Origin: Nitrospirillum viridazoti CBAmc
GTDB lineage: Bacteria; Pseudomonadota; Alphaproteobacteria; Azospirillales; Azospirillaceae
Reading direction: 5' to 3'
Length of the DNA: 64,000 nt
Assembly: GCF_000730165.1 (NCBI RefSeq)
Contig: NZ_CP022110.1
Span: 2,627,501 to 2,691,500 of the forward strand
The notes under the pieces are model-generated. The model saw only the letters and a program-made list of their open reading frames with translations, was not told the origin of the DNA and made no database searches. Below, piece after piece: positions 25,999 through 62,851 of the stretch (positions are counted from its first letter, which is position 1; the number at the start of each line of letters is the position of its first letter). A program made the position numbers and the translations under genes.

Positions 25999-26008
25999 AC
26001 TGGCACGC

Positions 26009-26136
26009 CCTCAATCGCCGGGCGCCGGCATCCGCCGGCTTGGCTGTCCTCGTTTTGCCGTCCACTGCGTTCCCCGCAAAACTCCGGCGGACGCAGTCGC
26101 GTCCTACAGCGGCAGGAGGGGAATCCTCATGCCGCT
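26009..26136 (+). repeat. Structured intergenic repeat, copy A (four hairpins)
   Basis: A 128-bp element also found at 61248-61371 (+) and 40059-40181 (-). Hairpin I: GCCGGC (26024-26029), loop ATCC, GCCGGC. Hairpin II: GTTTTGC (26052-26058) with GCAAAAC (26076-26082). Hairpin III: GGACGC (26089-26094), loop AGTC, GCGTCC. Hairpin IV: AGCGGCA (26108-26114) with TGCCGCT (26130-26136), extended inward by five more pairs. The three copies differ in the arms by paired changes. It begins 11 bases after the kinase stop and lies before the convergent arsC-like gene. Confidence 0.85.
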
Positions 26137-40029: not shown

Positions 40030-40058
40030 GGCACTTCCTTCTCTCAACGGCAAAACCG

Positions 40059-40181
40059 GCGGCATGACGTCTCATGCCGCAATAGGACGCGACCGCGTCC
40101 GCCGGAGATTTTCGGGGAACGCAGTGGACTGAAAATCGAGGACAAGGCAAGCGGGCGGATGCCCGCGCCCGCCGCCTGAGG
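40059..40181 (-). repeat. Structured intergenic repeat, copy C (four hairpins)
   Basis: Same family as copies at 26009-26136 and 61248-61371, read on the minus strand. Hairpin I: GCGGGC-ATCC-GCCCGC (40166-40151). Hairpin II: GATTTTC (40137-40131) with GAAAATC (40113-40107). Hairpin III: GGACGC-GGTC-GCGTCC (40100-40085). Hairpin IV: GCGGCATGA-GACG-TCATGCCGC (40080-40059), a perfect 9-bp stem. It begins six bases after the argJ stop and ends 29 bases before the mutT start, in the direction of transcription. Confidence 0.85.
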
Positions 40182-40187
40182 GAACAC

Positions 40188-41420
40188 TTAACTCCGGTAG
40201 CTCCCATTGATATCGATGTAGCCGTGGGTCAGGTCGCAGGTCCACACGGTGGCCTTGCCCCGGCCCAGGCCCAAATCGACCTGGATGTCGATCTCCTGTC
40301 CCTTCATGTGGGCGGCCACCGGCGCCTCGTCATAGCCCGGGACCTCCATCCCGTTGGCGCAGATCTGCACGCCGCCGATGCTGATCACCAGCTTGTCGCG
40401 GTCGGCCTTCTCACCGGCGCGGCCCACGGCGGCGACGATGCGGCCCCAGTTGGCGTCCTCACCCGCCACGGCGGTCTTGACCAGGGGGGAGTTGGCGACG
40501 GTCAGGGCGATACGCTTGGCCGCCTGGCTGCTGGCCGCACCGGTCACGGTCAGGGTCACGAACTTGGTGGCACCCTCGCCATCGCGCACGATCTGCTGGG
40601 CCAGGTCCAGGCAGACGGCGTCCAGCGCCTTGGCGAAAGGCCGCAGGCGCGGATCGGTCGCGTCGGTGATGGGGGCGTTACCGGCCCGGCCGGTAGCCAC
40701 CAGGATCACCGTGTCGCTGGTGGAGGTGTCGCCGTCCACCGTCACGCAGTTGAAGCTGCGGTCGGTGGCGCGCGACAGCAGCTTCTGCAGCACCGGGGCG
40801 GCGATGGCGGCATCGGTGAACAGGAAGCCCAGCATGGTCGCCATGTCAGGGGCGATCATGCCGCTGCCCTTGGCGAAGCCGTTCAGGGTCACGGTCTTGC
40901 CGTCGATGATGCAGGTGGCCACCGCCCCCTTGGGGAAGGTGTCGGTGGTCATGATGGCGCGGGCGGCGGCATCCCAGTTGCCGGCGTCCAGCTTGGCCCA
41001 GGCGGCGCCCAGGTGCTGGGCGATCATGTCGGCCGGCAGGGGCTGGCCGATGACGCCGGTGGAGGCGACGAAGACCTCCTCCGGCTTGCAGCCCACCAGT
41101 TGAGCGGCGGTGGCCACCGTCTCGGACACCAGCGATTCGCCGGCGGCACCGGTGAAGGCGTTGGAGTTGCCGGAGTTCACCACCAGGGCGCGGGCGCTAC
41201 CGCCGGTCAGGCCCTTGCGGCACCAATGCACGGGCGCGCTGGCGGTCAGCGAGCGGGTCAGCACGCCGGCGACGGTGGTGCCGGGGGCCAGCTCGGCCAC
41301 CATCAGGTCATCCCGGCCCTTGTAGCGGATGCCGCAGTTGTATGCCGCCAGGCGGACGCCGGCCACGGGGGACAGGGTGGGGAAAGCGTCGGGCGCCAGG
41401 GGGGAGACCTTGAGGGCCAT
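40188..41420 (-). CDS. argJ: Bifunctional glutamate N-acetyltransferase / amino-acid acetyltransferase ArgJ
   Basis: A 410-residue ArgJ of the Ntn-like OAT family, which recycles the acetyl group from N-acetylornithine to glutamate in arginine synthesis. The precursor cleaves itself before the threonine in KGSGMIAPDMATMLGFLFTD (about residue 190); this T becomes the nucleophile of the beta chain. VVNSGNSNAFTG (about 100-111) lies in the alpha chain. The start ATG 41420 has GGAGCGAT upstream; the long frame beyond is not family-like. It is followed by mutT and preceded by ppiC and secA (divergent), the usual alphaproteobacterial neighbourhood. Confidence 0.96.
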   Translation of the reverse strand: MALKVSPLAPDAFPTLSPVAGVRLAAYNCGIRYKGRDDLMVAELAPGTTVAGVLTRSLTASAPVHWCRKGLTGGSARALVVNSGNSNAFTGAAGESLVSETVATAAQLVGCKPEEVFVASTGVIGQPLPADMIAQHLGAAWAKLDAGNWDAAARAIMTTDTFPKGAVATCIIDGKTVTLNGFAKGSGMIAPDMATMLGFLFTDAAIAAPVLQKLLSRATDRSFNCVTVDGDTSTSDTVILVATGRAGNAPITDATDPRLRPFAKALDAVCLDLAQQIVRDGEGATKFVTLTVTGAASSQAAKRIALTVANSPLVKTAVAGEDANWGRIVAAVGRAGEKADRDKLVISIGGVQICANGMEVPGYDEAPVAAHMKGQEIDIQVDLGLGRGKATVWTCDLTHGYIDINGSYRS

Positions 41421-61232: not shown

Positions 61233-61247
61233 GTGCGTTTCCTTGTC

Positions 61248-61371
61248 CCTCAATCGCCGGGCGCCCCGTCCGGGGCTTGGCTTCCTCGCTTTCCAGTCCG
61301 CTGCGCTTCCCGTAAAGCTCCGGCGGACGTGGTCACGTCCTATAGCGGCTGAATCAAAGTCTCATGCCGTT
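61248..61371 (+). repeat. Structured intergenic repeat, copy B (four hairpins)
   Basis: Same family as 26009-26136 and 40059-40181. Hairpin I: GCCCC-GTCC-GGGGC (61263-61276). Hairpin II: GCTTT (61288-61292) with AAAGC (61314-61318). Hairpin III: GGACGT-GGTC-ACGTCC (61325-61340). Hairpin IV: AGCGGC-TGA (61344-61352) with TCA-T-GCCGTT (61362-61371, one bulge). It lies inside the thi operon in the opposite orientation; its hairpin IV includes the last codons and stop of thiO. Confidence 0.85.
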
Positions 61372-62559
61372 GGCACTCCGCCCCTGGAACCGCCCGATGC
61401 CGAAGGGCGCCAGCAGGGGGTCCACCCGGCCTGTCAGGATGTGATCGGCGACCAGGTCGGCCGTGCCGGGGGTCAGCAGGATGCCGTTGCGGTGGTGGCC
61501 GGTGGCCATGACCAAGCCGGCGACATCGGGCACCGGCCCCAGGATGGGGGCGTCGTCGCGGCTGCCCGGGCGGTGGCCCACCCACATCTCCTCGATCGGC
61601 AGTTCCTCCACCCCGGGCAGGGCCCGCCACGCGGCCTCCAGCAGGGCCAGCACGCCGCCGGCCGTCAGATGGTCGTCCCAGCCCTTGTCCTCGGTGGTGG
61701 CGCCCACGATCAGGCGACCGTCCAGGCGGGGCACCAGATAGCATTTGGGCGGCCACACCACATGGCGCAACAGCGGCTGGGCCGGGTCCATGCGCAGGGC
61801 CAGCATCTGGCCCTTCACCGGCCGCACCGGCGGCACCGCGCCCTCGGGCAGACCCGCCAGCTGGCGCGACCAGGCGCCGGCGGCCAGCACCACCACATCG
61901 GCGGGCTTTAGCGCGCCGTCCACCACCACGCCGTCGGCGCGGCCCGCTGTCAGCGACAGGGCCTCCACGGCGGCGCCCTCGTGCAGGCGGGCGCCGGCCT
62001 TCAAGGCGGCGGCCTTCAGCGCCAGCGCCAGCTTGCGGTTGTCCACCTGGCCGTCATCGGCGCCCAGCACACCGGCGGCGACGCGGGGGTTCAGCCACGG
62101 CTCCCGCTCCTTCACCTGGGCGCCGTTCAGCCAGGCGACGTTGAGGCCCAGGCCGCGCTGGAACTCGAAGCCGCTGCGCAGCACCTCCACATCGTCGCGG
62201 GTCAGGGCCACCTGCACCGTCCCGTCCGTGCGCAGATCGACGGGCAGGCCGCTGTAAGCCTCCAGCTCGGCGGCGAAGGCGGGCCAGCGCCGCTGGCTGT
62301 CCAGGGTCAGGGGCAGCAGCGCCTGCTCCCCCGGTTCCGCCTCCACGGCGGCCGCCAGCATGCCGGCGGCGGCATGGGTGGCGCCCCGGCCGGCGGTTCC
62401 CCGGTCATAGATGTCGACCGTGCAGCCGGCGGCGGCCAGGCGCCAGGCGATGGACAGGCCGATGCAGCCGGCGCCGATGACGATCACCCGGGGGGCGACG
62501 GACGGCTTGGCGGCAGATGGATGGGTAGAAGGATGGCCCGAAGGCGGATGATAGGTCAC
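61354..62559 (-). CDS. thiO: Glycine oxidase ThiO
   Basis: A 401-residue FAD-dependent oxidase that turns glycine into dehydroglycine (iminoglycine) for thiazole synthesis. The dinucleotide-binding motif is VIVIGAGCIGLSIAWRLAAAG (about 24-44). GLPVDLRTDGTVQVAL, VRPVKGQMLAL and GLVMATGHHRNGILLTPGTAD are conserved DAO/ThiO segments. The start is set at GTG 62559, 11 bases after the AGGGAGA ribosome binding site at the 3' end of the TPP riboswitch; the ATG at 62586 lies inside the aptamer and is not used. First gene of the thi operon. Confidence 0.93.
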   Translation of the reverse strand: MTYHPPSGHPSTHPSAAKPSVAPRVIVIGAGCIGLSIAWRLAAAGCTVDIYDRGTAGRGATHAAAGMLAAAVEAEPGEQALLPLTLDSQRRWPAFAAELEAYSGLPVDLRTDGTVQVALTRDDVEVLRSGFEFQRGLGLNVAWLNGAQVKEREPWLNPRVAAGVLGADDGQVDNRKLALALKAAALKAGARLHEGAAVEALSLTAGRADGVVVDGALKPADVVVLAAGAWSRQLAGLPEGAVPPVRPVKGQMLALRMDPAQPLLRHVVWPPKCYLVPRLDGRLIVGATTEDKGWDDHLTAGGVLALLEAAWRALPGVEELPIEEMWVGHRPGSRDDAPILGPVPDVAGLVMATGHHRNGILLTPGTADLVADHILTGRVDPLLAPFGIGRFQGRSANGMRL

Positions 62560-62570
62560 GGTCTCGCGAT

Positions 62571-62656
62571 CTCCCTTCGCCGGCATGATCCGGAGCAGGT
62601 TCCATGGGTCTGATCTCAGCCGCGGGCCTGATGGTCAGGCGGGCGGCACCCCAGTC
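62571..62656 (-). promoter_or_regulatory. TPP riboswitch (THI element) of the thi operon
   Basis: Read on the minus strand the conserved blocks are in order: GGGGTGCC, GGCTGAGATC, GACCC, GAACCTG, TCCGGAT, ATGCCGGCGAAGGGAGA. These are the P1-P5 core elements of the TPP aptamer. The variable P3 arm is GCCCGCCTGACCATCAGG-like. The thiO ribosome binding site (AGGGAG) overlaps the 3' end of the aptamer, so TPP binding should block translation initiation. Confidence 0.93.
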
Positions 62657-62851
62657 GATGGCAGGAACGATGGCGGACGGGGCGTCCGAATTCAAGGGTC
62701 TTGGCGTCATGCCTGGGTGACGGGGCCGCGTTCGACATCACCCGTTCGCGCGCGCCGATGTGCCGTCCGCCCTAACCCATCAGGGATTTGACAAGTAGGC
62801 CGATTGTCTGGACTCTGCGAACCTTAGGGGTCCAGCTACCAAGGTCTGCTC

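Follow-up and report, generated by a model that had tools for sequence, protein, structure and literature searches.

In a 64-kb window of the Nitrospirillum viridazoti CBAmc genome (G000:C1:2627501-2691500, the whole stretch of DNA analysed, from a genome of 7.38 Mb in four contigs), three structured repeats lie between or at the ends of genes, raising the question of what they are and how they came to be there. An initial annotation, made from the letters of the window alone, described three full-length copies with compensatory changes in four hairpins, and suggested that they might be an RNA motif, a transposable structured repeat mobilised in trans or a nucleoid or transcription end element. 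The three copies (the 26009, 40181 and 61248 sites) align end to end at the places it gave (Table 1), and a pattern for the conserved core matches the window exactly three times, at these copies, where no match is expected.

Table 1. Coordinates of the repeat features in the window.
Feature	Position	Strand	Remarks
Copy 1 core	26008..26106	+	CCCTCA, hairpins I-III, to CCTA; 120.3 bits, top own-genome covariance model match
Copy 1 hairpin I	26024-26039	+	
Copy 1 hairpin II	26052-26082	+	
Copy 1 hairpin III	26089-26104	+	
Copy 1 terminal arm B (initially "hairpin IV")	26107..26136	+	folds as 8+4 bp hairpin
Copy 2 core	40083..40182	-	starts 5 nt past stop codon of ArgJ-family gene 40188-41420
Copy 2 terminal arm B	40055..40082	-	
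Copy 3 core	61247..61342	+	absent from orthologous site of congener G002
Copy 3 degenerate terminal arm B	61343..61378	+	contains stop codon of FAD-dependent oxidoreductase gene 61354-62487 (-)

The core consists of CCTCARNCGCCGGG, hairpin I (loop RTCC), TTGGCT..CCTC, hairpin II, CTCCGGC, hairpin III (loop RGTC) and CCTA, in that order, with stem variants and loops as originally described; the loop of hairpin II carries an extra apical mini-stem of two base pairs, and some copies have a shorter alternative hairpin II cassette. The linker CTCCGGCGGACG, likewise reported as conserved, is present in all three window copies, and in the wider family it varies after CTCCGGCGG. Pairing holds in 96.3% of the pair cells of a 32-copy alignment, where two-sided changes number 122 (39.0 in shuffles), and it falls to 31-55% in slid controls. 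An alignment of 112 distinct copies, which was itself fitted to the covariance model, gives 96.9% paired cells and 436 two-sided changes against 123.5 in shuffles, hence the compensatory changes first noticed in three copies are real.

Strong pairing around conserved loops might indicate a structured RNA, such as a 3' UTR stabiliser or a regulatory or sRNA-like motif, which has spread by duplication and whose stems are under selection as RNA. Conservation across the class around CCTCA..CGCCGGGCG, ATCC and CTTGGCT points the same way, these motifs having also served as the search pattern. However, selection on a plus-strand RNA would favour G-U pairs, and the non-Watson-Crick cells among the 2582 in the 112 copies comprise 13 G-U, 52 A-C and 28 others. 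The excess of A-C mismatches over G-U pairs, being equivalent to G-U on the minus strand, would suit an RNA read from that strand, but 21 of the 52 come from one single pair, and G-U of either strand accounts for just 65 of the 2582 cells. The scarcity of plus-strand G-U thus argues against a simple plus-strand RNA motif, and weakens this part of the original interpretation. When each copy is folded individually, copies 1 and 2 outperform shuffled sequences and copy 3 hardly does so (DNA z scores of -5.4 for copy 1, -3.3 and -3.1 for the strands of copy 2 and -1.4 for copy 3; RNA z scores of -3.4, -2.4 and -2.0 for copies 1, 2 and 3, with copy 1 at -3.8 on its minus strand). The centroid folds of copies 1 and 2 as single-stranded DNA contain hairpins I-IV, whereas in their minimum-energy plus-strand RNA folds hairpins II and III are paired otherwise, which also speaks against an RNA element.

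The family extends far beyond the window. The covariance model search proposed in the initial annotation, using a model built from 32 copies, identified at least 150 copies in the own genome, where blastn with copy 1 gave 44 matches and the 5' motif alone 87, against 0 for the reversed control. Eighteen of 40 genomes searched with this model had matches: the own genome, six congeners with at least 101 copies each, and 11 others that are more distant and score lower. The exact hairpin I pattern occurs in at least 116 stretches of named genomes; among the 80 stretch titles listed, two say only Proteobacteria and the rest are alphaproteobacteria, the carriers including Nitrospirillum, Niveispirillum, Azospirillum, the Roseomonas group, Magnetospirillum, Telmatospirillum, Erythrobacter and other Sphingomonadales. 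No match to the repeat was found in plasmid and phage collections. Rfam, at both gathering and relaxed thresholds, gave no usable match over the window copies (the best sub-threshold match, at copy 1, scored 14 bits) and none in 19 loci, and an open-access literature search of titles and abstract openings revealed no paper describing the repeat. In the searches made, the family is therefore neither confined to three copies nor matched by a catalogued one, and the impression of a real, structured intergenic family is borne out; it is also widely dispersed.

Among the 150 own-genome matches listed, the density per Mb is 37 on contig C1, 12 on C2, 7 on C3 and 6 on C4. The listed matches on C1 are several-fold denser near both ends of the contig than in its middle, and a strand bias is not evident in their raw counts (58 plus, 52 minus). 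At one locus on this contig (L030, about 200.9-201.5 kb), four or more minus-strand cores follow one another in tandem, ~119 nt apart, and face a plus-strand copy; they represent a subfamily with a shorter hairpin I.

The level of variation between related genomes was also studied. Judged by eye in seven congeneric genomes, the 26009 site holds a full copy in G000, remnants in G001, G002 and perhaps G003, and no copy in G004 and G006; in G005 the copy is inverted and has both arms. At 24 orthologous sites compared with G002 (25 rows, two of which are one site, in a four-way grouping made by the analyst), 9 cores are at least 90% identical, 8 are diverged copies, 1 is inverted and 6 are missing or truncated; the flanks are mostly 89-98% identical, the lowest being 83%. 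The G002 copy at the 40181 site differs by five compensated and two broken pairs, and at one of 52 unpaired positions. In the G002 ortholog of the copy at G000:C1:2750626 (loci L305-L324), hairpin III has grown into a short-period tandem array.

The copies from other genera reveal a longer unit. Here palindromic arms flank the core, arm A before and arm B after it, with TACC and GGTA as the outer ends of the unit; when intact, the unit is ~145-165 bp long (144-165 in the strict set) and comprises TACC, hairpin A, a T-rich linker, CCTCA, hairpins I, II and III, hairpin B and GGTA, with TNA on either side. Hairpin IV, which the initial annotation had placed in all copies, corresponds to arm B: it is present at the 26009 and 40181 sites, but it is degenerate at 61248, lies outside the conserved core and, by a simple motif test, follows 41 of 127 own-genome cores. 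Arm A is absent from the three window copies and completes the element elsewhere; the own genome has 16 matches to it at up to two mismatches, and most copies there lack it.

Both the ends of this unit and its flanks resemble those of a transposon. In a strictly filtered set of 13 full-length units drawn from several genera, for which the TACC/GGTA ends also served as a filter, ten have equal flanking 3-mers, each of them TNA (permuted mean 3.6, maximum 8 in 1000 permutations); Azospirillum sp. RU38E contributes three of these 13, two with an exact duplication, and they are counted again in the set from that genome. RU38E contains 107 arm A sites, against 0 in the control, of which 72 were read, 52 having a recognisable end and 20 having none. 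Units of 156-161 bp make up 47 of these 52, and 36 are flanked by an exact 3-bp duplication, in every case TNA (16 TTA, 12 TAA, 4 TCA and 4 TGA; permuted mean 12.3, maximum 23 in 2000 permutations), with no duplications of 4 bp and no exact duplication at the remaining 16 ends. A terminal inverted repeat, TACCAANCNNCC..TGACC, is found at both ends of the RU38E units (133 matches, against 2 in the control); outside RU38E the inverted ends are short, namely TACC/GGTA. Elements that are short, dispersed and present in many copies, with terminal inverted repeats and a target site duplication, have the characteristics of MITEs. The window repeats are most likely to be the cores, mostly missing one or both ends, of such an alphaproteobacterial non-autonomous transposable element (MITE), ~145-165 bp in length. 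Mobilisation in trans is accordingly the favoured of the original suggestions, in view of the TNA duplications, the presence/absence polymorphism and the inverted copy at orthologous sites; a structured RNA would leave the arms A and B and their target duplications unexplained.

High copy number, intergenic location and hairpins are shared with REP/BIME-type palindromic repeats moved by a RAYT (Y1) transposase, and in many own-genus copies hairpin III, when read backwards from arm B, takes the form of GTAG followed by a palindrome. However, the G of this GTAG is part of arm B and disappears with it, such that GTAG is found at the end of the palindrome only when arm B follows, and it is absent from the other-genus copies inspected. 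Furthermore, Y1_Tnp (PF01797) has no match in the own genome (completeness 100%) or in RU38E, whereas the control genomes do match, and to our knowledge a 3-bp target duplication is not expected of Y1 transposases. With PF01797 absent from both genomes searched, an origin by RAYT activity was rejected as very improbable. REP sequences of the GTAG and CGTC types are described as single palindromes of 20-40 bp with a terminal tag and complementary stem variants, the carriers of the CGTC type being mostly alphaproteobacterial (PMC3733652); the repeat studied here differs in having a core of ~100 bp within a longer unit, other ends and no RAYT in the two genomes searched. On inspection of the core and RU38E alignments, the CGTC tag and stem starting with A-T that define the latter type in section 6 of that paper were not seen, and this assignment too was set aside.

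The repeats are strongly associated with the ends of genes. With a window-trained codon model used to call genes, 127 of the at least 150 own-genome copies could be placed (23 of the 150 listed have flanks that are too short), and none of these is wholly inside a called gene: 52 are between convergent genes, 53 are antisense and 21 sense in tandem pairs, and 1 is between divergent genes, compared with 12 divergent among 48 gene pairs of the window. The median distance from the stop codon of a sense upstream gene to the core is 5 nt in sense tandem pairs and 6.5 nt in convergent ones. A separate tally of base composition upstream of the cores leaves out the 16 of 127 lacking an exact CCTCA. In other genera, RU38E included, 0 of 83 cores are wholly inside a called gene and 6 of 79 classified are in divergent pairs, a count that excludes 41 cores whose flanks are short and 10 loci assigned to Nitrospirillum (by sequence for those beyond L208). 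The median distance from stop codon to core is here 34 nt, which would fit arms A still being present.

Within the window, copy 1 is located between a histidine kinase gene and an ArsC-family gene, which are convergent. Since the degenerate arm B of copy 3 contains the stop codon of the FAD-dependent oxidoreductase gene (61354-61356, minus strand), the end of that protein is probably encoded by the element. This gene adjoins one of the ThiS family, and a TPP riboswitch (62554-62663, minus strand, 60.2 bits) lies upstream of the genes flanking copy 3, one of them ThiS-family.

Such a distribution could also arise if the repeats were native bidirectional transcription terminators, homogenised by gene conversion rather than mobile. 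The 52 copies between convergent genes would suit this explanation, as would some copies in other genera that follow, by eye, terminator-like T runs or tRNA genes. Nevertheless, no intrinsic terminator was detected at the two copies scanned, and gene conversion between terminators accounts neither for the target duplications nor for the presence/absence polymorphism, which makes this origin very unlikely; of the proposed role as a transcription end element, it is the location at 3' ends that holds. The position directly past stop codons could also be regarded as that of an RNA element, and in tandem pairs the transcribed strand is mainly the minus one (53 against 21), on which the A-C mismatches read as G-U. 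Weighed against the rarity of G-U pairs, the discordant RNA folds and the flanking arms, the structured RNA explanation is unlikely, if less so than the other two alternatives. What was originally observed in the window is thus confirmed, and its interpretation partly supported.

The preference for gene ends is most precise in RU38E. For 36 clean insertions the site before insertion was reconstructed, and in 20 the TNA proved to be the exact stop codon of a called gene, compared with 61 of 808 other non-coding TNA (p = 1 × 10-12) or, as a stricter background, 61 of 321 TNA within 150 nt 3' of a stop codon (p = 6 × 10-6); 16 of the 36 are outside called stop codons, and none is inside a called gene. 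This excess was seen in one genome, with genes from a home-made caller, and part of it can be the product of later selection against insertions elsewhere. As TAA and TGA and their complements TTA and TCA are all TNA, insertion in a stop codon restores it and leaves the protein unchanged.

Stems that change in step are usually read as the result of slow selection on an RNA, and the young family in RU38E provides a natural experiment on this. In a set of 47 copies (five of the 52 fell outside 150-165 nt or were duplicates), the mean minor fraction is 0.009 in the stems of arm A and 0.011 in TTGGCT, and 0.31 in stem I. Two-sided changes number 80 in stem I, against 13 others, 4 against 5 in stem III and 26 against 8 in arm B, hairpin II and the four inner pairs of arm B being left out of these counts on account of alignment gaps; the counted pairs include 11 G-U and 14 A-C. 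For rare states the two-sided and other changes are 0 and 12 in arm A and 9 and 8 in arm B (p = 0.003). Hence paired change occurs in I and B and not in A, even though A is also a palindrome. Linkage tables between hairpins, which are sparse (49 of 52 copies parsed), show alleles combined in many ways. Either the inner hairpins and arm B are kept paired by selection, or alleles are exchanged or copied from arm to arm. It is doubtful that the covariation represents slow compensatory selection on one RNA, because the hairpin alleles of this young family already differ in pairs when the adjacent sequence is nearly identical; template switching or exchange between copies may contribute to the pairwise change of alleles as well as selection.

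Near-identical cores with similar arms were also observed at L134, L149, L154, L158, L165, L172, L174, L206 and L208, and at L214, L220, L221 and L243. The loci from L134 to L208 are titled as one Rhodospirillales metagenome bin, C5coas_bin-2163, in which the many near-identical cores suggest another recent burst.

As summarised in PMC10969869, PMC6382973 and PMC2229807, the bacterial MITEs RUP, Correia/NEMIS, ERIC, MITEAba12 and QMITE2 resemble the present repeat in their size (~100-180 bp), multiple intergenic copies, terminal inverted ends, short target duplications and stable hairpins, and QMITE2 is mainly found in 3' untranslated regions, comparable to the location at gene 3' ends seen here. 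In these accounts MITEAba12 duplicates 9 bp and has no recognised target sequence, as opposed to the 3-bp TNA of this family, which is further distinguished by five separate hairpins, paired stem variation with constant loops, and TNA duplications at stop codons in RU38E. The nearest described alphaproteobacterial repeats are the CIR elements of Caulobacter and Brucella (Chen and Shapiro 2003, as reported in PMC2229807), which are likewise intergenic, ~110 bp long and composed of two stem-loop arms and a linker with TA at both termini; compared by this description, they differ from the present unit in that it has a three-hairpin core between the arms. In other genera, arm A is enriched in the CIR hallmark GANTC (20 of 57, against a shuffled mean of 7.9 and a maximum of 15), a count that near-identical copies from one bin may swell, and this makes a distant link to CIR possible. 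GANTC shows no enrichment in arm B, whether in the own genus (5 of 41, against a shuffled mean of 5.5) or in other genera (10 of 56, against 8.6), nor in the RU38E arms (2 of 104) or the own-genome cores. In these cores GANTC, the methylation site of CcrM, is found in 1 of 127 where 26.6 would be expected from mononucleotide shuffles, a shortage that may reflect either avoidance or merely a fixed sequence.

TNA target duplications are also made by IS5-family insertion sequences of the IS1031 group, a likeness that did not extend, in the loci examined, to a transposase gene between matching ends. The own genome has four matches to PF13340, and none of the three loci examined has TACC/GGTA ends with a TNA duplication; the same is true of all six PF01609 (DDE_Tnp_1) loci in RU38E. 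An inverted pair of arms 3.6 kb apart, considered as a candidate autonomous element, turned out to be two ordinary elements, and no autonomous partner with the same ends was found in limited searches of the own genome and RU38E loci.

The family is thus a gene-less element of Alphaproteobacteria, a row of hairpins found at the ends of genes, that is probably mobile. A transposase acting in trans would insert the unit at a TNA near the end of a gene, duplicating the 3 bp and, in a stop codon, restoring it; the terminal arms would then decay, and the core would persist in the 3' end of one or two transcripts. As most own-genome copies have no arm A, we infer their insertion by the TNA route. Retention of the core as a two-way 3' end for adjacent transcripts would be compatible with its location, and may benefit the host.

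Three points are new here: the target duplication of TNA, the clustering of insertions in stop codons seen in one genome, and the fast paired change of hairpins in a young family. A bolder and more tentative proposal, for which the odds seem somewhat unfavourable, is that the family is a class-wide transposable element targeting the stop codon itself: insertion at TNA in gene ends would restore the stop codon and bring in a hairpin 3' end that works in both directions, and the hairpins would diversify by exchange of whole pairs, keeping their structure as the sequence drifts freely. If so, more than 100 gene 3' ends per genome would be supplied by a mobile element, and landing in stop codons, by avoiding damage, would represent a simple and testable route by which transposons may become abundant in compact genomes.
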